A stretch of DNA of 64,000 nt from Collinsella sp. An7 (GCF_002159335.1 NZ_NFHP01000004.1:1-64000), one strand, 5' to 3'; positions 14,740 to 25,008 are shown, counted from the first letter of the stretch. A program made the numbers and translations. Notes: generated by a model from the letters alone, not told the origin.

Positions 14740-17334
14740 CTAGCAGGTGGCGCCGCCCTTGACCTCCTTCTTGAGGATGGCCTCCTTATCGATGGGGGCC
14801 GTGAGGAGCTTCTCCTCCACGTAGTCAAAGCCGAGGCGCGCGATGGTGTCAGAGAAGCGCTCGCCGCTCAGCCCCTCGTCGCGGAAGAACAGGATGGCGC
14901 GCTCGACCACGTCCATGACCTCGTCCTCGTTGGTAAAGAGCTTGCCGAGCGGGATGCCGTGCGCCGTCTTCTTGCCCCAGCGCCCTCCGATGTAGACCTT
15001 GTAGCCCACCTGGTCCTCGGTCACCGCGCCAAAGGGGCAGGTGCCGATGCAGCGCCCGCAGCGATTGCAGACCTCCTCGTCGATGGCGATGCGGCCGTTC
15101 TCGGCAATGTGCGCGTCACCGAGCGGGCATGCCTCGACCACCTGGCAGACCTTGCAGCCGCGGCACTTGGCGGGGTCGATGGCGGGTACGCGCTGGCCCA
15201 CGATGCCAAGGTCGTTGAGGTCGGGCTTGACGCACATGTTGGGGCAGCCGCCCACGGCGATTTTGAATTTGTGCGGCAGCTCGACGCCGTGGTAGCCCAC
15301 GTAGAAGCGCTCGTGCAGCTTCTCGGAGAGAGCGAAGGTGTCGATGAGACCGTACTGGCAGGTCGTGCCCTTGCACGAGACTACGGGGCGCACCTTGGAG
15401 CCGGTGCCGCCCGCGTCGAGGCCCGCCTCCTGCAGATAGGCGATGCAGGGCTCGATCTGCCCGTAGTGCACGCCCTGGATCTCGAGCGTGAGGCGGGTCG
15501 TCATGGTCACCTCGCCCGAGCCGAACTTCTCGGCCGCCTCGGCAACCGTCTTCTGCTCGGCGGCGGTGAGCTTGCCGTTGCGGGTGATCACGCGCACGTT
15601 AAAGACGTCGTCGTAGCGCTTGTCCTGAAGGCATCCGAGGCCCTTCAGGCGCTTGATCTCGGCGGCGGGGAGCTTGTTGCCGGCCTTGCGCGGCACGTGC
15701 ACCTCGTTAAAGGTCATGCCGCCCTCGAGCACGCGCGTGGCGGTGTAGCCCGCGGCCTTGAGACGGTTCTGCGTAAAGTAGCCGCGCTTGCCCTTGGCGC
15801 ACACAAGCAGGAGCTTCTCGTCGCGTGCGTGCCCGGCGATGCCCTCCGGCCCCACTTGGGCGAGGTCCACCCACTCCGCGCCGGGGATGGTGGGCTCGGG
15901 CAGCACGTCGATCACGGTGTAGTCGCGCGCCTCACCCGCGGTGTATTGGGCGGGGGTGATGGTCTCGAGCTTGCCGTCGAGTTTGTTCTCGAGGATGTAG
16001 CAGGCCGTCACGAGTGGGTGGATGGCGGTGGAGAAGGGCGGCGCATAGGCAAAGTCCATGAGGTCAAGGTCGTCGACGGTGAGCTTCTGGTAGAGGGCCG
16101 CAACGGCGATATCGACCACCTTGTCGACTGCGCCCGCGCCAAAGACCTGCGCGCCGAGGAGCCGGCGCGTGGGGCGGTCGGCGATGAGCTTGAGGTAGAA
16201 GCTCGAGGCGCCGGGGTAGTAATGGGCCTTGTCGTCCACGATGCAGACGATGCTCTCGGGCTCAAAGCCGGCAGCGCGCGCCGCGGCCTCGGTCAGGCCG
16301 GTGCGCCCGCCGTTGAGGGAGGAGGTGAGCTTGACCACGCCGGTGCCGAGCACGCCGGGGTAGGGCGTCGGCGTGCCGGTAAGGGTCTTGGCGAGCGCGC
16401 GGGCGGCGATGTTGGCCGTCGAACCCATGGCGCTCCACTGGGGCGCCCCCGTGAGGGCGTTGCTCACCTCGGCGCAGTCGCCGGCGGCGTAGACGTCGGG
16501 CAGGTTGGTCGCGAGGTACTCGTCTACGAGGATGCAGCCCTTGAGTGTCTCGATGCCCGAGCCCTCGAGCCAGGCGGTGGCGGGGCGGATGCCGATGGCG
16601 AGCACCACGAGGTCGGCGGGGATGCTGCCGGTGGGCGTGGCGACGGCGCCGGCGCGGTCTGCGGCATCGCCCGTACCGGCGGTGATGCCCTCGAGCGGCG
16701 TGGAGAGGCGCACGCGCATCCCGGCGGCCTTGAGCTGACGGGTGGCCCAAGCGGCCATCTCGGGGTCAAAAACGTTGGGCATGATCTGGTCGGCCGCGTC
16801 GATCACGGTCACGTCGAGCCCGCGGGCGAGCAGGTTCTCGGCAACCTCGAGTCCGATAAAGCCGGCACCCACTACCACCGCGCGCCGGCAATCGCGGCGC
16901 TCGGCCCAGGCGCGGATGCCCTCGGCGTCGTCGGGCGTGCGCACGCAGAAGACGCCCTCGAGGTCGGTGCCGGGCACGGGCGGCACAAAGGGCGCGGCAC
17001 CCGTGGCAATCACGAGCTTGTCGTAGGACTCGGTGTCCGTCGTGCCGTCGGAGCGGCGGACAGAGACCGTGTGCGCCGCGGCGTCGAGTCCGGTGGCCTC
17101 CACACCCGTCTCCACATGGACGCCGGTCAGGCCCTCGTACTTCTCGGGCGTGTTGACGATGAGCTCGTCGCGCGACTCGATGCCCCCGCCGATGTAGTAG
17201 GGCAGGCCGCAGCCGGCATAGGAGATGTCGGCATCGCGCGTGATGACGCGCACCTCGGCCGTGCGGTCGCAGCGCTTGATCTTGGCTGCCGCCTTGGTGC
17301 CGGCGGCCACACCGCCCACGATGAGAAAGCGCAT
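14740..17334 (-). CDS. three-module siroheme reductase: CoA-disulfide-reductase-like flavoprotein + rhodanese-like + nitrite/sulfite reductase
   Basis: The protein has 864 aa. Residues 1-450 are a class III pyridine nucleotide-disulfide oxidoreductase (VGGVAAGTKAAAKIK FAD site; SYAGCGLPYYIGG with redox Cys42, as in CoA-disulfide reductases). About 455-540 is a rhodanese-like fold with a Cys in LLLVCAKGKRG. About 560-864 is a nitrite/sulfite reductase unit with siroheme/[4Fe-4S] ligands (CKGTTC and GGCPNMC) and two ferredoxin clusters (CRGCKVC..., CNRCGRCIGTCPFG). It probably passes NAD(P)H electrons through FAD and Fe-S to siroheme to reduce sulfite, nitrite or a sulfur species; the true substrate is not readable. 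The start follows AAGGGGAC. Siroheme synthesis genes lie 3 kb away in the opposite orientation. Confidence 0.88.
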   Translation of the reverse strand: MRFLIVGGVAAGTKAAAKIKRCDRTAEVRVITRDADISYAGCGLPYYIGGGIESRDELIVNTPEKYEGLTGVHVETGVEATGLDAAAHTVSVRRSDGTTDTESYDKLVIATGAAPFVPPVPGTDLEGVFCVRTPDDAEGIRAWAERRDCRRAVVVGAGFIGLEVAENLLARGLDVTVIDAADQIMPNVFDPEMAAWATRQLKAAGMRVRLSTPLEGITAGTGDAADRAGAVATPTGSIPADLVVLAIGIRPATAWLEGSGIETLKGCILVDEYLATNLPDVYAAGDCAEVSNALTGAPQWSAMGSTANIAARALAKTLTGTPTPYPGVLGTGVVKLTSSLNGGRTGLTEAAARAAGFEPESIVCIVDDKAHYYPGASSFYLKLIADRPTRRLLGAQVFGAGAVDKVVDIAVAALYQKLTVDDLDLMDFAYAPPFSTAIHPLVTACYILENKLDGKLETITPAQYTAGEARDYTVIDVLPEPTIPGAEWVDLAQVGPEGIAGHARDEKLLLVCAKGKRGYFTQNRLKAAGYTATRVLEGGMTFNEVHVPRKAGNKLPAAEIKRLKGLGCLQDKRYDDVFNVRVITRNGKLTAAEQKTVAEAAEKFGSGEVTMTTRLTLEIQGVHYGQIEPCIAYLQEAGLDAGGTGSKVRPVVSCKGTTCQYGLIDTFALSEKLHERFYVGYHGVELPHKFKIAVGGCPNMCVKPDLNDLGIVGQRVPAIDPAKCRGCKVCQVVEACPLGDAHIAENGRIAIDEEVCNRCGRCIGTCPFGAVTEDQVGYKVYIGGRWGKKTAHGIPLGKLFTNEDEVMDVVERAILFFRDEGLSGERFSDTIARLGFDYVEEKLLTAPIDKEAILKKEVKGGATC

Positions 17335-17571
17335 AGGTCCCCTTTCGCTTGGATGACACACTCCATCATAGGTCGTTTTGACGGCGGCGACACGGAGGTG
17401 GTGCGCGCCGCGGGCGAGCGGTCGGCGCGTTGGGGCTGGCGGGTGGGCTGGATCGTCTGCCGCCCGCGCCGGTTCCCTCGGGGCGTTGTTGGCCCATACG
17501 ACGTTGGCGTGGTTTTGCGCGGGCGCGCCTACTCCCGCTCTCGCGGGGACTGCGGTGTCCGCAGGGTGGGG

Positions 17572-17577
17572 TACCAT
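17572..17577 (+). promoter_or_regulatory. candidate -10 box before the FMN reductase
   Basis: TACCAT lies 42 nt before the start codon. The same hexamer lies 37 nt before the permease start (19036-19041). No clear -35 is seen. The rest of the 285-nt divergent gap holds nothing else recognisable. Confidence 0.3.
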
Positions 17578-17619
17578 GGAAAAAACGGGCGCGTTGCGCC
17601 TCAGACGAGAGGGGCCGAT

Positions 17620-18171
17620 ATGGCTAAGGTGCTCATCATCGCGGGATCGCTCCGCGAGAAGTCGTTCAACCGGCAGCTCGCTCGCGCGGCAGAGGCGCGC
17701 CTCGCCGGCCGCGCGGAGACCGAGATGCTCGAGTATGCAGATGTGCCATTCATGAATCAAGATGTGGAGTTTCCGCCGCCGGAGGCGGTCGAGCGCGTGC
17801 GCGCCGCCGTTCGTGCGGCCGATGCGCTCTGGATCTTTACGCCCGAGTACAACTACAGCTACCCCGGGGTGCTCAAGAACCTGCTCGATTGGCTGAGTCG
17901 CCCGGTCGTCCCCGGTGAGCGCGCCACGGCCGTCACGGCGGGCAAGCCCGTTGCCGTGAGCTCCTGCGCGGGTCGGTCCGCCGGTGCCGGGTCGCGCGCC
18001 AAGCTCACGGAGCTTTTGCGCGCCATGCAGGCGGTCCCGCTCGAGGAGCTACAAGTGGGCGTGAGCCTTGACGGCGCGGCGTTTGCGTCGGATGAGCTCC
18101 CCCTCACCGATGAGATACTCGCCGGGCTCGATGCGGAGGCGAGTGCGCTGCTCGCCGCGGTCGCGGCGTGA
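17620..18171 (+). CDS. NADPH-dependent FMN reductase family protein
   Basis: Flavodoxin-fold reductase of 183 aa, related to chromate/quinone reductases of the YieF/ArsH group. The FMN phosphate-binding loop is GSLREKSFNRQLA (8-20). The family signature TPEYNYSYPGVLKNLLDWLSRP lies at about 76-97. It would use NAD(P)H to reduce flavins, quinones or metals; the substrate is unknown. The start ATG follows GAGAGGGGCCGAT. It is divergent from the siroheme reductase and could share regulation with it (inference). Confidence 0.9.
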   Translation: MAKVLIIAGSLREKSFNRQLARAAEARLAGRAETEMLEYADVPFMNQDVEFPPPEAVERVRAAVRAADALWIFTPEYNYSYPGVLKNLLDWLSRPVVPGERATAVTAGKPVAVSSCAGRSAGAGSRAKLTELLRAMQAVPLEELQVGVSLDGAAFASDELPLTDEILAGLDAEASALLAAVAA

Positions 18172-18375: not shown

Positions 18376-18906
18376 ATGAGAGAACATATCGACGTCATCG
18401 AGCGGGCGGGCGCCATCTTGGGCGCGCTGACGCCCGGGGCGCTGGTTACGGTCAAGGCGAACGGGCGCGTGAACCCCATGACGATCGGCTGGGGCATGCT
18501 CGGCATCGAATGGCGCCGGCCGATCTTTATCGCCTACGTCCGCTGCGACCGCTACACGCACGAGCTGCTTGAGGATGCTGACTGCTTTACCGTGAACGTT
18601 CCCGTGCCGACGGGCGACGCCGAGGCGGACCGCCGCGCGCGCCATGCGCTCGGTTTCTGCGGTTCCCACAGCGGCCGCGACGGCGATAAGGTGGCCGAGC
18701 TCGGCCTCACGCTCGTCCCGGGAGAGGAGGTCGACGCCCCGGCCATCCGCGAGTTGCCGCTCACCCTCGAGTGCCGGATCATCTACCGGCATGACCAGGA
18801 CACCGCGCTCATGCCCGAGGAGCTCCGCGCGGGCACCTACGGCGACGCGCCCGTCTATCACACCGCCTACTACGGGGAGGTCGTGAGCGCCTACCTGCTG
18901 CGGTAA
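18376..18906 (+). CDS. flavin reductase-like (FMN-binding split-barrel) protein
   Basis: The protein has 176 aa and fits the flavin_reduct/DIM6-NTAB fold: the N-terminal strand-rich region GALVTVKANGRVNPMTIGW, then FIAYVRCDRYTHELLE and FTVNVP, then the C-terminal YHTAYYGEVVSAYLL. Family members bind FMN and often couple to monooxygenases or act as flavoredoxins in anaerobes. The exact partner is unknown, but the neighbouring FMN reductase is a plausible one. The ATG is preceded by GAAAGGGGAGCGT. Confidence 0.85.
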   Translation: MREHIDVIERAGAILGALTPGALVTVKANGRVNPMTIGWGMLGIEWRRPIFIAYVRCDRYTHELLEDADCFTVNVPVPTGDAEADRRARHALGFCGSHSGRDGDKVAELGLTLVPGEEVDAPAIRELPLTLECRIIYRHDQDTALMPEELRAGTYGDAPVYHTAYYGEVVSAYLLR

Positions 18907-19035
18907 GGGCGCTGATATTCGGTCGATGCGCGTTCGGGGGTGCCCGGCATCCCCGAACGATCGGTGCAAAGGGGCAGGGCTTTGCGCCGGGGAGGGCCAC
19001 GCCGCCCGAGTGCGCCGCCGCGCTGCCTCCTGTCG

Positions 19036-19041
19036 TACCAT
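19036..19041 (+). promoter_or_regulatory. candidate -10 box of the permease-siroheme gene group
   Basis: TACCAT lies 37 nt before the permease start codon, within a 172-nt intergenic region with no other signal. Confidence 0.3.
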
Positions 19042-19078
19042 AGGGCGATGCAACGGACGACATCGACGAGAGGGCGGC

Positions 19079-20557
19079 ATGGCTCAGGACGACAGCACAG
19101 ACAAGGGGCGCACCGCACGGCGGGCGGGCTCCACCGAGCTCAAGCGCAACGCCCTGGGCGCGCCGAGCCTCGTCTTCATCGTCATCGCTGCCATCGCCCC
19201 GCTGGCGGCGTGCGCGGCCAACATCCCCCTCATCATCGGGCATGGCAACGGTATCGCTGCGCCCCTCGATTTTGTGCTCATGGGGGTCGTGCTCGCGCTC
19301 TTCTCCTGCGGCTACACTGCCATGAGCGAGCACATGGTCAACGCCGGCGCCTTCTGGGCCTACGTCTCCGAGGGTCTCGGGCGCGTCGCGGGCGCGGCGG
19401 CGGGCTACCTCGCGCTCGTGTCGTACAACGTGCTCACCGTATGCACCTCCGCCATGGGAGGCTACATCGTCTCGCGCAACCTCGGCTTTGAGCTGGGGAT
19501 CGACCTGCCCTGGTGGGCGGTGTCCGCCGTGCTCTGGGTGGTCGTGTGGCTCCTCGGCGCCGCGGGGGTGGACGTGGGCGCGCGCTTTCTCGGGGTCTGC
19601 CTCGTCCTCGAGCTCGTCATCATCGTCGCGGCGGTGGGTGCGGTCGTGCTCGGTGAGGGGCTGGCGGCGTTTCTGGCGGCGTCGTTTGCGCCCGAGAGCT
19701 TCGTGCGCGGCTCGCCGGGGCTCGGGCTCGTCTTTGCCTTTGCGTGCTATCTGGGGTTTGAGGCCACGGCCGAGTACAGCGAGGAGGCGCGCGATGCCCG
19801 GCGCACCGTCCCGCGCGCGACCTTTGCCGCGCTGGCGCTCGTGGGCGCGCTTTTTGTAGCCGCGGCGTGGGCGATGCTCGCCGCGCTCGGGCCGGAGGCG
19901 GTGCGCCTCGCGCAGGGGGAGGATGCGGGGACGATCCTCTACCGCATCGTGGCGGCGCGCCTCGGCGCGGGCTTTGGTCACGTGTACAACTGGTTCTACA
20001 TGCTGAGCTCGATTGCGTGCTGGGTGAGCGCGCACAACGCCGCCACGCGCTACCTGTACGCCTTCGGGCGCGCGGGGCTGCTCCCGCGGGTGCTCGCCCG
20101 CACGCACCCGCGGCGTCGGAGCCCCTACGTCGCCGGCCTCGCGCAGGCGGCCTTCGGTGGCGGGGTGCTCGCGCTGGCCGCGGCGGCGGGGCTCTCGCCC
20201 TACGCGCAGATCGGGGCGACGGCTTCGGCGCTCGCCTGCGTGGGCGTGATGCTGCTCGAGCTGCTGGCGTCGGTCGCCGCCTTCTGCTATCTGCGGCGGC
20301 ATGCGGGCGAGCCGGGTTTTGAGTACGGGTTCTTGAGGGCTCGCGTTGCGCCGGTGCTCGCGGCGGTGGCGCTCGGCGCGGTGAGCGTACTCGTGATGGC
20401 GAACCTTTCCGCCCTGACCGAGCAGGAGTCGTTTGCGGTGAATCTGGTGCTCGGCTGCCTCATGCCGGCGGTGCTCGGCGCGGGCTGGCTGGTGGCGGCC
20501 CGCCGTGCGCGCCGGGGGACGCTCCCCGATCCCGCGGGCATCTCGGTGGAGGGCTGA
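19079..20557 (+). CDS. APC-superfamily amino acid/organocation permease
   Basis: The protein has 492 aa with about twelve membrane segments and a short hydrophilic, charged N-terminus. The first segment carries the APC-like region FIVIAAIAPLAACAANIP, and the second includes the glycine-rich loop and YTAMSEHMVNAGAFWAYVSEGLG, typical of the family. The conserved cytoplasmic segment YLGFEATAEYSEEARDARRTVPRAT lies near the middle. The substrate cannot be read from sequence. ATG 19079 follows GAGAGGGCGGC. The next gene begins 3 nt after its stop, so it is probably in one transcript with the siroheme branch, which is unexpected for an amino acid transporter. Confidence 0.88.
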   Translation: MAQDDSTDKGRTARRAGSTELKRNALGAPSLVFIVIAAIAPLAACAANIPLIIGHGNGIAAPLDFVLMGVVLALFSCGYTAMSEHMVNAGAFWAYVSEGLGRVAGAAAGYLALVSYNVLTVCTSAMGGYIVSRNLGFELGIDLPWWAVSAVLWVVVWLLGAAGVDVGARFLGVCLVLELVIIVAAVGAVVLGEGLAAFLAASFAPESFVRGSPGLGLVFAFACYLGFEATAEYSEEARDARRTVPRATFAALALVGALFVAAAWAMLAALGPEAVRLAQGEDAGTILYRIVAARLGAGFGHVYNWFYMLSSIACWVSAHNAATRYLYAFGRAGLLPRVLARTHPRRRSPYVAGLAQAAFGGGVLALAAAAGLSPYAQIGATASALACVGVMLLELLASVAAFCYLRRHAGEPGFEYGFLRARVAPVLAAVALGAVSVLVMANLSALTEQESFAVNLVLGCLMPAVLGAGWLVAARRARRGTLPDPAGISVEG

Positions 20558-20560
20558 GGC

Positions 20561-22114
20561 GTGGGCGAGGCGAGGGCCGGGGCGGTCCGCGGCCAAAATG
20601 CGCGCTACGGCCTGGTGGTCGCCTGCTACGGTGCGTCCGACCCGGCGTTTGTCGAGGGGTGGGCGGTACCGCTCATGTGGGAGGCTCGCGACGCCCTGAC
20701 GGTGGCACGGGGCGTCTCGGCGGACGACCTTGCCTGCCGTATCGCCTTTACGAGCCCTGGGGTCCGCACTGCGCTTGCGGCGCGTGGTGTTGCCGTTGCA
20801 GACGTTGCCGGGGCGCTCGACGACCTCGCCCGCGCCGGGGTGTGCGAGGTGGCGGTGGCGTCGGCACATCTGGTGGCGGGCGGCTCGTACCGCGCGCTTG
20901 CGGATGCCGCGTCTTGGGCGGAGGCGCGCGGTTGCGCCGTGCGCGTGGCGGCGCCGCTGCTGGCAGATGCGGACGATGCGATCTGTCTGGCCCGGGCGCT
21001 GACGGACCGCTATCCCGCCGAGCCCGGCCGCGCCGTGGTGCTCGTGGGGCACGGCGCGGCCGGGGCGGCGCAGCTCTCCTACGCCGCGCTCCAGGCCTAC
21101 CTTGCCGCGCAGGGCCGTGCCGATGTGCTGGTGGGTACGCTCCGCGGGCGACCGGGCGCGGAAGAGGTTATGGCCGAGCTCGCCGCCCTCGGGTGCCGAC
21201 GCGTGCTGCTCGCGCCCCTCATGCTCGTGACGGGCGTGCACGCCGCGCGCGATATCGGCGGGACGGGAGCGGGAAGTTGGTGCGTGCGCCTTGCGGCGGC
21301 GGGTTATGAAGTGACGGTGGCGCCGGAAGGTCTGGCGGAGCTCCCCGCGGTGCGCGAGCTCGCGGTGCGCCATGTGCTGGCGGCCGTGTCGCAGCCGGCG
21401 GAGGACGCCGCGGACGTGCGGCCGCAGCTGCCGCCGCGGCACGCGGCGGGGGATGCGGTTGCGGGCTTCGGTGTGTCCCCGGGAGCGCGCTCGGAGGGTG
21501 CTGCCCGCCCGCCGCGCTTCCCGCTCTTCGTCTCGCTGGCGGGTGCGCGCTGCCTCGTTGCGGGATTTGGAGCGGTGGGGGAGCGCCGCGCTCGGGCGCT
21601 TGCGCGGTTTGGCGCGGAGGTGCTCGTCGTGGACCCACGCGGGGCGGCGTCCGTGGGTGCAGAGGCGGATGCGCCGCATGTCAACGACGCTGCAGGCGAT
21701 GTCGGGCTCGCGGCAAAGGCCTCCCACGCCTCACGCGTTGCCGGGGGCGCGCCGCATGAGCCCGCTGCCGCGTGCGACGAGGGCGATGCGCCGTCGCGCC
21801 TCGTGCTCCCGGCATCTGGTGGCGGGCGCATCGTCGTGGCCGCGCGCGCCTACCGGGAGGGCGACGAGGAGGGCTGCGCGCTCGTCGTGGCGGCCACCAG
21901 CGACCGGGCCGTCAACCGCCACATCGGCGCGCGCTGCCGCGAGCGGGGCATCCCGGTCTCCGTTGCGGACGCCCCGGAGGAGGGCACGTTCTTCTTCCCG
22001 GCGCTTTGCGAGGGTGAGCGGCTCGTTGCGGGCATCGTCTCGCGCGACGGTGCGCACGCCGATCACGCGCTCGTTGCCCGGGCGGCACGCGACGTGCGCA
22101 GCATCCTGCCATAG
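20561..22114 (+). CDS. CbiK-type chelatase fused to precorrin-2 dehydrogenase (Met8-like)
   Basis: The protein has 517 aa. About 15-285 resemble the anaerobic CbiK sirohydrochlorin chelatase, with the metal-binding His in VLVGHGAAGAAQLSYAAL and the second His in PLMLVTGVHAARD-IGG-TGAGSW. About 325-517 resemble the Met8/CysG-B NAD-dependent precorrin-2 dehydrogenase, with the Rossmann motif GFGAVGERRARAL, then VVAATSDRAVNRHIGARCRE and the final EGTFFFPALCEGERLVAGI. It would oxidise precorrin-2 to sirohydrochlorin and insert iron (siroheme) or cobalt. The acidic ligand between the two histidines of known CbiK is not obvious (the equivalent stretch reads VGTLRGRPGAEE). The GTG start follows GGTGGAGGG. 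Confidence 0.85.
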   Translation: MGEARAGAVRGQNARYGLVVACYGASDPAFVEGWAVPLMWEARDALTVARGVSADDLACRIAFTSPGVRTALAARGVAVADVAGALDDLARAGVCEVAVASAHLVAGGSYRALADAASWAEARGCAVRVAAPLLADADDAICLARALTDRYPAEPGRAVVLVGHGAAGAAQLSYAALQAYLAAQGRADVLVGTLRGRPGAEEVMAELAALGCRRVLLAPLMLVTGVHAARDIGGTGAGSWCVRLAAAGYEVTVAPEGLAELPAVRELAVRHVLAAVSQPAEDAADVRPQLPPRHAAGDAVAGFGVSPGARSEGAARPPRFPLFVSLAGARCLVAGFGAVGERRARALARFGAEVLVVDPRGAASVGAEADAPHVNDAAGDVGLAAKASHASRVAGGAPHEPAAACDEGDAPSRLVLPASGGGRIVVAARAYREGDEEGCALVVAATSDRAVNRHIGARCRERGIPVSVADAPEEGTFFFPALCEGERLVAGIVSRDGAHADHALVARAARDVRSILP

Positions 22115-22141: not shown

Positions 22142-22193
22142 GTCGGGACGGTCAGCGCCGCCCTGCGGCGCGTTTTTGAGCAAAGGGGGTCCC

Positions 22194-23222
22194 ATGGCGG
22201 AGCGGGTTCTGGTGCGCATCGGCACGCGGCGCTCCGTCCTTGCGCGGGAGCAGGCGCGCATCGTGGGCGCAGGTCTTGCGGCTGTGGCGCGCGCGGAGGG
22301 CATCGAGCTCACCTTTGAGCTCGTGGGCATCACCACCGCGGGCGACCGCATCCTGGACCGCCCGCTCGAGCAGATCGGCGGCAAGGGGCTCTTCATTCGC
22401 GAGCTGGACAGCGAGATGACCGAGGGGCGCATCGACATCGCCGTCCACAGCTGCAAAGACCTTCCCGTCGAGCTCGACCCGCGCGTCCGCATCGCGGCGA
22501 TTCCCGCCCGCGGCGACGTGCGCGACGTGCTCGTGCTGCCCGTGCCGGGCGGTGAAGGTGCCGCAGTCGCGGACGTCCCGACGCCCGGCAGGAGCGCAGA
22601 GCCTTGCAGCGACCTTGCGGAGCTGGGTGCCCGCCTGGTGGCGACGGGGCTCCCCATCGGCTGCTCGAGCGCCCGACGTCGCGTGCAGCTGGGTGAGCTC
22701 TTTCCCGGTGTTCCCGTGGCGTCGATCCGCGGCAACGTGAACACGCGGCTCGAGAAGCTCGACGCGGGCTCGTATGCGGCGCTCACGCTCGTCGTGGCGG
22801 GCCTTGAGCGCCTTGGCTTAACTTCACGCCTCAGCCGCGTGTTCGAACCGCACGAGATGCTCCCCGCAGCGGGGCAGGGTGCGCTTGCGGTCACGGCGCT
22901 GCGCCGCGGCGGCACTCCCGACGGGCGGGTCGCGCTCATCGATCGGCTCCTCGAGCGCTATCACGATGTGCAGACGGGCCTGTGCGTTACGGCCGAGCGC
23001 GCCTTTACCCGCGCGCTCGGAGCCGATTGCGCCACACCCTGCGGGGCGTATGCGTGCGCAACGGACTCCGGTGCCATCGAGCTCGAAGGCCTTTTTGCGC
23101 CACCCGGCTGCGCGCCGCGACGCGGCAAGACGGTGGTCGAGCTTGCGGACGCCTCTGCCGACGTTGCGACCGCACGACTCACGGCTGCAGCGTCGAGCCT
23201 TGCGGAGCGGCTACTTGCGTGA
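22194..23222 (+). CDS. hemC: hydroxymethylbilane synthase (porphobilinogen deaminase)
   Basis: Polymerises four porphobilinogen molecules into hydroxymethylbilane using a covalent dipyrromethane cofactor. The protein has 342 aa. Motifs are IGTRRSVLAREQA at the N-terminus, IGGKGLFIRELDSEM, DIAVHSCKDLPVEL, then RRVQLGELFPGVPVASIRGNVNTRL and MLPAAGQGALAV. The cofactor Cys is in the GADCATPCGAYA region. An insertion of about 25 residues (around PGGEGAAVADVPTPG) precedes the domain boundary, making it longer than the usual 310 aa. The ATG follows AAAGGGGGTCCC. It belongs to the siroheme group; HemB and earlier steps are not in the window. Confidence 0.95.
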   Translation: MAERVLVRIGTRRSVLAREQARIVGAGLAAVARAEGIELTFELVGITTAGDRILDRPLEQIGGKGLFIRELDSEMTEGRIDIAVHSCKDLPVELDPRVRIAAIPARGDVRDVLVLPVPGGEGAAVADVPTPGRSAEPCSDLAELGARLVATGLPIGCSSARRRVQLGELFPGVPVASIRGNVNTRLEKLDAGSYAALTLVVAGLERLGLTSRLSRVFEPHEMLPAAGQGALAVTALRRGGTPDGRVALIDRLLERYHDVQTGLCVTAERAFTRALGADCATPCGAYACATDSGAIELEGLFAPPGCAPRRGKTVVELADASADVATARLTAAASSLAERLLA

Positions 23223-23406
23223 TGGCGGTTTTTGGTGCTGAAACCGGTGGTTTTCCGCGCAGTACACGACCTGCGGAAACAGAGCGTTTGAGCAGGTAGA
23301 CGGCACATCCTCCTGAGGGGAAGAAGCATTAGATTTTGGCACGTAATCTGGGGACGGCGGAGTATAGGCCGCGGTGGGGCGGCGGCAAACGGGCAAGGAG
23401 GCGGCT
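23223..23406 (+). other. hemC-cobA intergenic region with hairpin
   Basis: The 184-nt gap has no gene. A hairpin TTTCCGCGCAG (23252-23262) / CTGCGGAAA (23271-23279) follows hemC. No recognised tetrapyrrole or cobalamin riboswitch motif was found by eye. Confidence 0.5.
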
Positions 23407-25008
23407 ATGGAAGACCAGGGGCAGCTAGCTGGGGGCCATATGGACGATCCAGCGACCTCGCGCGGGGTGCGCGCCGAGGGTGCTGCTCGCGTGGCGCTTG
23501 TGGGCGCGGGTCCGGGTGCGCCGGACCTCATCACGGTGCGCGGTCGGGAGTTCCTCGCGCGCGCCAACACCGTCTTGTACGACCGGCTCATCAGCCATGA
23601 GCTGCTCGGCCTCTGCCGTCCCGACGCCAAGCTCATCAACGTGGGCAAGCACGCGGGCGTGCATTCCGTACCACAGCAAGAGATTAACCGCCTGCTCATG
23701 GAGGAGGCGCTCTGCGTTGGGGCGGGCGGGCTCGTCGTGCGTCTCAAGGGCGGCGACCCGTACGTCTTTGGCCGTGGTGGCGAGGAGGCGTCGGCGCTTG
23801 CGGCGGCGGACATCCCCTTTGAGGTGGTGCCCGGGGTCTCGAGTGCTGTTGCGGCGCCGGCGTGGGCGGGCATCCCCGTCACCGATCGGCGCTTCGCATC
23901 GTCCTGTACTGTGGTGACGGGCCATCGCCGCACCGACGGCACGCTCGACATCGACTACGACGCGCTCGTGCGCACGCGCGGCACACTCGTCTTTCTGATG
24001 GGGGTCGCTACGATGCCCCAGATCTGCGCGGGGCTTCTTGCCGCCGGTGCTGCCGCTGACCTGCCGGCGGCCGTGGTCGAGCGGGGAACGAGCGCATCTC
24101 AGCGCCGCATCGACGGCACCCTTGGCGGTATCGCCGAGCGTGCCCGGGCGGTGGGCGTGGAGAGTCCGGCCGTGCTCGTGGTGGGGGCGGTGTGCGCGCT
24201 CGCGCCGGAGCTCGACTGGTACGACCGGCTGCCCCTGCGCGGCACCCGTGTGCTCGTGACGCGCCCGGTGGACCGCGCGGCGGGGCTTGTGCGGGCGCTC
24301 GCGGGCGAGGGCGCGGCGGTGGAGGAGTTTCCGTGCATCGAGACGCGTCCGCTCCCGTCTGCCGCCAAGATGCTCGGCCGCCTGCGAAACTTCACCTGGC
24401 TTGTGCTCACGAGCACGTTTGGCGTGCGCTGCCTTATGGACGTGATTGCGGCGGGCCCGCTCGACCTGCGGTGCCTCGGGCATCTGCGCATCGCGGCCAT
24501 CGGCTCCGCCACTGCCGCGGCGCTCGCGGCCCATAGGATCACGGCCGATTACGTGCCCGAGGTCTACGACGGCGCGCACCTGGGAGCGGGGCTTGTCGAG
24601 CGCGCCGACGCAGCGTGCGACCGAGTGCTCATCTTTCGGGCGCGCGACTCGCTCACCGACCTGCCGGAGGCGCTCGAGCGCGCGGGCGTGCCCTTTGAGG
24701 ACGTTGCCGCGTACGAGACCGTGCTCGCCCCCGTCTCGCCTGCGCCCGATCTTGCCCGGCGGCTTGCGGCGGGGGAGTTTGACGCCGTTACCTTTACGAG
24801 CGCGTCGACTGCGCGCGGGTTCGCCCGGGCGTTCCCGGATGTTGCACCGCGGGCCTTTACGGCGGTCTGCCTTGGCGAGACCACACGCCGCGCCGCCGCG
24901 GCGCTCGGCTATCGGTGCGTCGTCTCGCGCGCGGCTACGATTGAGAGCCTCGTCGAGCGGACCGTCGAGGCCATAGGGCGGGAGCGTGGCGCTCAGGGCG
25001 GAGCCTGA
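23407..25008 (+). CDS. cobA: uroporphyrinogen-III C-methyltransferase / uroporphyrinogen-III synthase fusion
   Basis: Bifunctional protein of 533 aa. About 20-260 are the S-adenosylmethionine-dependent methyltransferase ([15 protein letters not shown] motif, [43 protein letters not shown]), which makes precorrin-2 from uroporphyrinogen III. About 270-533 are a HemD fold ([53 protein letters not shown]) that cyclises hydroxymethylbilane. With hemC and the chelatase fusion it makes the route from porphobilinogen to siroheme nearly complete. ATG 23407 is chosen because AAGGAGG lies 5 nt upstream; GTG 23374 is less likely. Confidence 0.94.

Follow-up and report, generated by a model that had tools for sequence, protein, structure and literature searches.

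A single-chain persulfide reductase, rhodanese and siroheme reductase in Collinsella, and a pattern among its relatives that points to siroheme salvage

The stretch of DNA analysed here, referred to as the window, comprises 64,000 nucleotides of Collinsella sp. An7 (GCF_002159335.1, NZ_NFHP01000004.1:1-64000), whose 2.37-Mb assembly is 99.7% complete. On its minus strand lies an uninterrupted reading frame that runs from an ATG at 17334 to a stop at 14740 and encodes a fusion protein of 864 amino acids. Long open frames antisense to genes, such as those at 14959-18171 (+) and 18809-21727 (-) of the window, are due to the high G+C content and are not genes. The fusion and its parts are as follows:

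14740..17334, minus strand: three-module protein of 864 aa, CoA-persulfide reductase, rhodanese and siroheme sulfite reductase with two ferredoxin clusters
16018..17331, minus strand: CoA-disulfide/persulfide reductase module, aa 2-439, with FAD/NAD domains and dimerisation domain
17209-17211, minus strand: redox Cys42 of the CoA-disulfide/persulfide reductase module
15700..15957, minus strand: rhodanese module, aa about 460-545, with active-site loop CAKGKR
15799-15801, minus strand: rhodanese Cys512, in the CAKGKR loop
14806..15609, minus strand: siroheme sulfite reductase module, aa 576-843, single-repeat, with sulfite site and siroheme-[4Fe-4S] cysteines
15037..15165, minus strand: inserted ferredoxin domain with two [4Fe-4S] clusters (Cys 724/727/730/736 and 756/759/762/766)
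14743..14757, minus strand: C-terminal tail GGATC, aa 860-864, invariant, behind a variable stretch

An earlier note on this DNA had read three modules in one 864-residue chain, and this is borne out by Pfam, alignment with PDB structures, Foldseek and 79 homologues. Pfam places Pyr_redox_2 at aa 2-291 (1e-59) and Pyr_redox_dim at aa 340-439, and aa 1-543 align with the CoA-persulfide reductase 8a56, the persulfide reductase 6pfz and the CoADR-RHD protein 3icr. Searched with Foldseek, the AlphaFold2 model (mean pLDDT 85.5, pTM 0.67, with low confidence at aa 644-658, 786-791 and the C-terminal tail) retrieved the persulfide reductases 8a56, 6pfz and 3ict at TM-scores to target of 0.89-0.93. 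The Pfam rhodanese match (aa 483-540) reaches 20.1 bits, slightly under the cut-off of 22.2; what makes the assignment firm is the aa 1-543 alignment together with Foldseek and the C-x4-R loop CAKGKR with its invariant cysteine. Cys42, a single redox cysteine of the CGLPYY type, sits within YAGCGLPYY in 79 of 79 homologues; Cys512 is invariant in the same set and its loop nearly so. The HYY (aa 371-373) and YAPPFS (aa 430-435) motifs of the flavoprotein module are likewise conserved. Given that both Cys42 and Cys512 are invariant, the persulfide-reductase module probably does more than donate electrons. An acidic residue at the end of the second Rossmann strand favours NADH over NADPH. Here that residue, Asp179, is invariant among the aligned homologues, which favours a flavoprotein of the NADH type and supports the earlier suggestion of a single-chain pyridine-nucleotide enzyme.

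The second half of the chain carries NIR_SIR_ferr (aa 576-637) and NIR_SIR (aa 645-843, 2e-28) with Fer4 between aa 718 and 772, and in the PDB comparison aa 572-839 match the F420-dependent sulfite reductase Fsr (7np8/7npa). Cysteines 654, 659 and 697 of the siroheme cluster are present in 79 of 79 homologues and cysteine 701 in 78 of 79, while the eight ferredoxin cysteines are conserved throughout that set. In Fsr, sulfite is bound by Arg355, Arg423, Lys460 and Lys462, and Arg388 marks the assimilatory type (PMC10229431). These residues align with R581, R649, K689, K691 and R614 of the fusion, all five of which are invariant in a 50-sequence alignment, supporting a complete sulfite site. 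The siroheme-site residues, whose loss in close homologues the earlier note had named as evidence against its reading, are thus conserved. The cluster motif itself takes the form CX4C...CX3C (SCKGTTCQYG), whereas the compared AsrC-like, Fsr, NirB and CysI sequences have CX5C; being one residue shorter than the canonical motif, it may reflect a different cluster or siroheme site. The earlier note had also raised the phylogeny of this module against other reductases. In our tree the siroheme modules of fusion and split forms make one clade (97/98); the branches are long, and the tree supports no particular deep placement of the module.

Every intact copy, the split form included, ends in GGA(T/S)C, and Cys864 is conserved as the last residue across the 79 homologues. 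Conservation is 99.6% in the tail compared with 65% in the stretch before it, and none of the three AsrC-like proteins nearest to the fusion has the tail. That an invariant cysteine closes a variable linker suggests a mobile, sulfur-carrying arm.

The nearest named relatives of the protein belong to Collinsella, Enorma, Olsenella and Thermophilibacter, and full-length homologues of 56-85% identity occur in Coriobacteriia, Lachnospiraceae, Oscillospiraceae and Spirochaetales. Full-length fusions are found in 16 of 60 relatives, the window genome excluded, and in the majority of 80 more loci spanning three phyla, so that the fusion is neither chance nor an assembly artefact. Two Lachnospiraceae loci (L108:2798-5422; L110:8001-10604) hold a split version in two adjoining genes, as would be expected of two functional halves. 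The 545-aa product is the persulfide reductase, and the 317-aa product is the siroheme reductase with its GGATC end kept. We found no description of such a fusion, or of its activity, in the open-access literature searched, which is weak evidence of absence.

Genes for siroheme synthesis lie 3-8 kb from the fusion, on the opposite strand:

20561..22114, plus strand: CbiK-like sirohydrochlorin chelatase fused to precorrin-2 dehydrogenase (CysG-N/Met8-like), last siroheme steps
22152..23222, plus strand: hemC, hydroxymethylbilane synthase
23374..25008, plus strand: cobA-hemD fusion, uroporphyrinogen-III C-methyltransferase and uroporphyrinogen-III synthase

As the only NIR_SIR protein of its genome, the fusion is likely the consumer of the siroheme made by these genes. 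Of about 40 Coriobacteriia loci, the window counted, 34 have chelatase and/or dehydrogenase genes (cluster 1) close to the fusion, and across the sampled loci the neighbours are siroheme genes, LysR regulators, a NifX-like protein or a FecCD-type importer. In many Bacillota loci, forming two groups (L066-L081, L078, L087-L090), a LysR-type regulator is encoded divergently upstream of the fusion and is likely a sensor of its substrate. The NifX/NafY-like (Nitro_FeMo-Co) protein, with an HFGHCDCF motif, lies between chelatase and fusion at L031:7312-7764 and in 22 further Coriobacteriia loci (cluster 2); its gene is divergent from the fusion, and it may possibly handle a cofactor. In three Spirochaetales loci (L101, L103, L104), pdxS/pdxT (vitamin B6) and a serine-hydrolase gene stand upstream of the fusion and importer. 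Gene clusters 4-8 beside the Atopobiaceae fusion, considered as tetrapyrrole genes, proved to be a phosphodiesterase and an hspR-dnaJ-grpE-dnaK operon, and the genes flanking the fusion of L093-L098 (nrdD, SHMT, transketolase) carry no sulfur signal.

Record titles place many relatives in the gut, as the earlier note had supposed. Its further suggestion of taurine- or cysteine-derived sulfite found no such backing, since no sulfonate or taurine gene was seen among the sampled neighbours. A downstream sulfonate transporter (SsuABC/TauABC), guessed from gene order, was rejected because the conserved transporter is of the Peripla_BP_2/FecCD type. Sulfate assimilation is also ruled out as the context of the fusion: ATP sulfurylase (Sat) was found in 0 of 40 fusion-bearing genomes, and CysD over its cut-off in 0 of 40. 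The sulfite consequently does not come from sulfate via known routes.

We propose that the fusion is a single-chain, NADH-dependent sulfite-to-sulfide reductase whose persulfide module reduces zero-valent sulfur (S0) released at the siroheme, with siroheme supplied by nearby genes in this genome and by import of sirohydrochlorin or siroheme through a FecCD-type ABC importer in relatives that lack hemC. Judged from sequence, this proposal is evenly poised between right and wrong. Sulfite would be held at the siroheme by R581, R649, K689 and K691 and reduced there with electrons that, on the simplest reading, would pass from NADH to the FAD module, then to the two ferredoxin clusters and on to the siroheme. 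The sulfur would leave partly or wholly as S0 (persulfide) rather than as sulfide, and would be collected on a protein thiol, the tail Cys864 and/or the rhodanese Cys512. Via CoA it would then reach Cys42 in the persulfide-reductase module and come off as sulfide, at the cost of another NADH. The electron route, the sulfur relay, the role of the tail and sulfite rather than nitrite as main substrate are what we infer; sulfur transfer between the modules is plausible. In a recent re-examination, assimilatory sulfite reductases are reported to release S0 first, with H2S forming later from it (PMC13188885); for siroheme enzymes of this kind, a persulfide reductase would be a natural second half.

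Against such a relay counts Arg614, since the Arg388-type marker belongs to enzymes classed as complete six-electron reducers (PMC10229431), which would need none. The fusion could then be a plain six-electron NADH sulfite reductase in which the flavoprotein acts as electron donor only, like the flavin domains of Fsr and NirB, and in which Cys42, the rhodanese and the tail handle no substrate sulfur. Its domain logic does parallel NirB and Fsr, Arg614 is of the assimilatory type, and 8c0z_E, the FAD subunit of an Fe-S aldehyde oxidoreductase, is related to the flavoprotein module. However, Cys42, HYY, YAPPFS, Cys512 and Cys864 stay invariant across three phyla and would be needless in a mere donor, and we consider this explanation unlikely.

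All three modules would find employment in a thiosulfate (or organic thiosulfonate) reductase, in which the rhodanese takes the sulfane sulfur and frees sulfite, and the CoA-persulfide and siroheme modules yield two sulfides. The missing sulfate activation genes, which imply a need for an external reduced sulfur oxyanion, would agree with it. Yet rhodaneses of the CoADR-RHD type act, to our knowledge, on persulfides, and the neighbourhood of the fusion gene showed no thiosulfate transporter, which leaves this function distinctly unlikely. A NirB-type enzyme detoxifying nitrite or nitric oxide would share a similar FAD/siroheme domain order, and the fusion scores 235 bits against the NirB model TIGR02374; nitrite is also reduced by Fsr (PMC10229431). 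That score is far under the cut-off of 578 and owes most of its value to the FAD domain (best stretch aa 5-336), while NirB is without equivalents of Arg581 and Arg614 at the aligned positions. A rhodanese would moreover make no sense for nitrite, and we regard a NirB-type function as very improbable.

Loss of tetrapyrrole synthesis in about half of the bearers goes beyond the earlier note, as do the GGATC tail, the CX4C variant and the nearby siroheme genes. Counted by hemC and SUMT (uroporphyrinogen methyltransferase) alone, hemC is absent in 27 of 50 fusion-bearing genomes, and 25 of these 27 also lack SUMT. Bullifex porci and Thermophilibacter provencensis are among the hemC-less bearers. 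All 27 keep an intact fusion, nearly always as their only siroheme enzyme; a second, AsrC-like siroheme protein is encoded at G089:C19:3686-4291 (L115), in a genome without SUMT and hemC. In G017, G060 (=L031) and G063 (=L034) SUMT-HemD is kept, hemC is missing and the importer is present. Among 60 relatives and the genome of the window, 15 of 17 bearers lack hemC; most of the relatives' genomes are 95-100% complete, and because several species are common to both, these relatives and the 50-genome set are not independent.

An importer of the FecCD/Peripla_BP_2 type follows or flanks the fusion in 12 of 27 hemC-less loci and in 0 of 23 hemC-positive ones. Binding proteins of such importers are encoded, for example, at L043:10590-11828 and L104:10640-11557. 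A profile of the Collinsella-type binding protein matches every one of the 18 hemC-less bearers in Coriobacteriia and none of the 4 with hemC (Fisher p about 1.4e-4, kinship ignored). This type and the adjacent importers of the Oscillospiraceae/Spirochaetales type together cover all 27 hemC-less bearers; one importer for all lineages is ruled out, the two binding-protein types being about 15% alike. In the Coriobacteriaceae and one related family (f1 and f5, 40 genomes), the importer is present in all 21 genomes that have a siroheme or B12 pathway without hemC, and in 0 of the 19 others. These 21 comprise 15 hemC-less fusion bearers and six fusion-less genomes with corrin methylases. The six Coriobacteriaceae concerned (G031 (L135:1-13000), G025, G028, G033, G035 and G036) have corrin-ring methylases and the importer, no hemC and no SUMT over the cut-off; for their B12 they likely take up a late tetrapyrrole precursor. 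G031 is the one whose corrin cluster was read closely, and there the importer directly adjoins the genes for CbiK and CbiE/T, H, G, L, D and F. A genome with both pathways (G009) has two importer copies, one of them beside its corrin genes.

On the fusion tree, hemC and the importer change state six times each, always together. Four independent pairs of coinciding changes fall on well-supported branches (six on all branches), and the p of 0.125 for four is not significant alone; the importer state of hemC-positive Lachnospiraceae on this tree comes from adjacency or the Collinsella-type search only. The pattern points to salvage of sirohydrochlorin or siroheme, as far as gene content can tell. 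Because sirohydrochlorin is the branch point common to siroheme and B12, it is our best guess for the importer's cargo. Near the fusion, Atopobiaceae keep the chelatase only, and Collinsella tanakaei types keep chelatase and dehydrogenase, a state consistent with import of sirohydrochlorin or precorrin-2; where neither gene is nearby, the bearer may import siroheme itself. Alternatively, hemC-less bearers might use another siroheme pathway, another tetrapyrrole or none, with the FecCD importer carrying B12, heme or iron for purposes unconnected with the fusion. Such an account could draw on the low likeness of the Collinsella and Oscillospiraceae/Spirochaetales binding proteins. The 21 of 21 against 0 of 19 distribution of the importer with a fusion or cbi cluster lacking hemC, its position beside CbiK and the cbi genes in G031, and the coinciding changes on the tree all speak against it, and it seems somewhat unlikely to us. 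Salvage of tetrapyrrole precursors is known for cobamides, where only dependence on 5-aminolevulinate has been verified (Shelton et al., PMC6461909). For siroheme salvage we found no description in the open-access literature searched, again weak evidence of absence.

We speculate that the fusion is a widespread gut-bacterial single-chain sulfite reductase that finishes S0 reduction with its own persulfide module and a C-terminal cysteine arm, that roughly one bearer in two is a siroheme auxotroph importing sirohydrochlorin or siroheme via a dedicated FecCD-type ABC importer, and that siroheme is a shared good of the gut community. This combined picture is tentative, and to us a little more doubtful than secure. 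Whether siroheme sulfite reductases yield sulfide or zero-valent sulfur is a question that has just been reopened (PMC13188885), and a natural fusion of a siroheme enzyme with a persulfide reductase would allow the product to be tested in one protein by single cysteine changes. The pattern in the relatives predicts siroheme-dependent bacteria unable to make their cofactor, and names a candidate importer. If this is true, sulfide formation from sulfite in the gut would depend on tetrapyrrole sharing among species.

Several known systems resemble the fusion in part. With CoA-persulfide reductase, NADH-dependent persulfide reductase (8a56, 6pfz, 3nta) and CoADR-RHD (3icr), aa 1-543 share the fold, FAD/NAD sites, Cys42, rhodanese cysteine and tyrosine motifs at about 31-35% identity, yet those proteins stop after the rhodanese, where the fusion continues into a siroheme reductase. 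Its score against the CoA-disulfide reductase equivalog TIGR03385 is 365 bits, under the 578.8 cut-off. Fsr and the fusion both combine a single siroheme repeat, an inserted two-cluster ferredoxin and a flavin domain in front, with identical sulfite-binding residues and the Arg388 equivalent. They differ in the donor domain, which is FrhB-like (F420H2) in Fsr and a pyridine-nucleotide persulfide reductase in the fusion; Pfam finds no N-terminal FrhB-like F420H2 oxidase domain in the latter, and Pyr_redox_2 stands there instead. Fsr also has CX5C in place of CX4C, and its alignment stops short of the tail region. AsrC and AsrC-like proteins share the single repeat with ferredoxin and, among the sequences sampled, come nearest to the module (34-38% identity), but the AsrC-like proteins in this sample carry CX5C and lack a C-terminal cysteine, in contrast to the CX4C and terminal cysteine of the fusion. 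The AsrC model TIGR02912 gives 105 bits, under its cut-off of 324, and no AsrA/AsrB partners occur among identified neighbours of fusion loci. NirB, the large subunit of NADH nitrite reductase, likewise joins NADH/FAD and siroheme domains in one chain, although it is without a rhodanese and its FAD domain comes from another branch.

The DsrA (TIGR02064, 100 of 392.9 bits) and DsrB (TIGR02066, 95 of 341.5 bits) models both score under cut-off, and DsrAB-DsrC has two siroheme chains where the fusion has one, from a single gene. The C-terminal cysteine tail recalls the DsrC arm by analogy only, having no homology to DsrC, and DsrA has Thr at the Fsr Arg388 position where the fusion has Arg614 (PMC10229431). 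Closest to the situation of the hemC-less bearers are salvagers in the cobamide pathway (PMC6461909), which have likewise lost upstream tetrapyrrole genes and kept the downstream pathway. There the product is B12, whereas in the bearers of the fusion the consumer is a siroheme enzyme, accompanied by a candidate importer.
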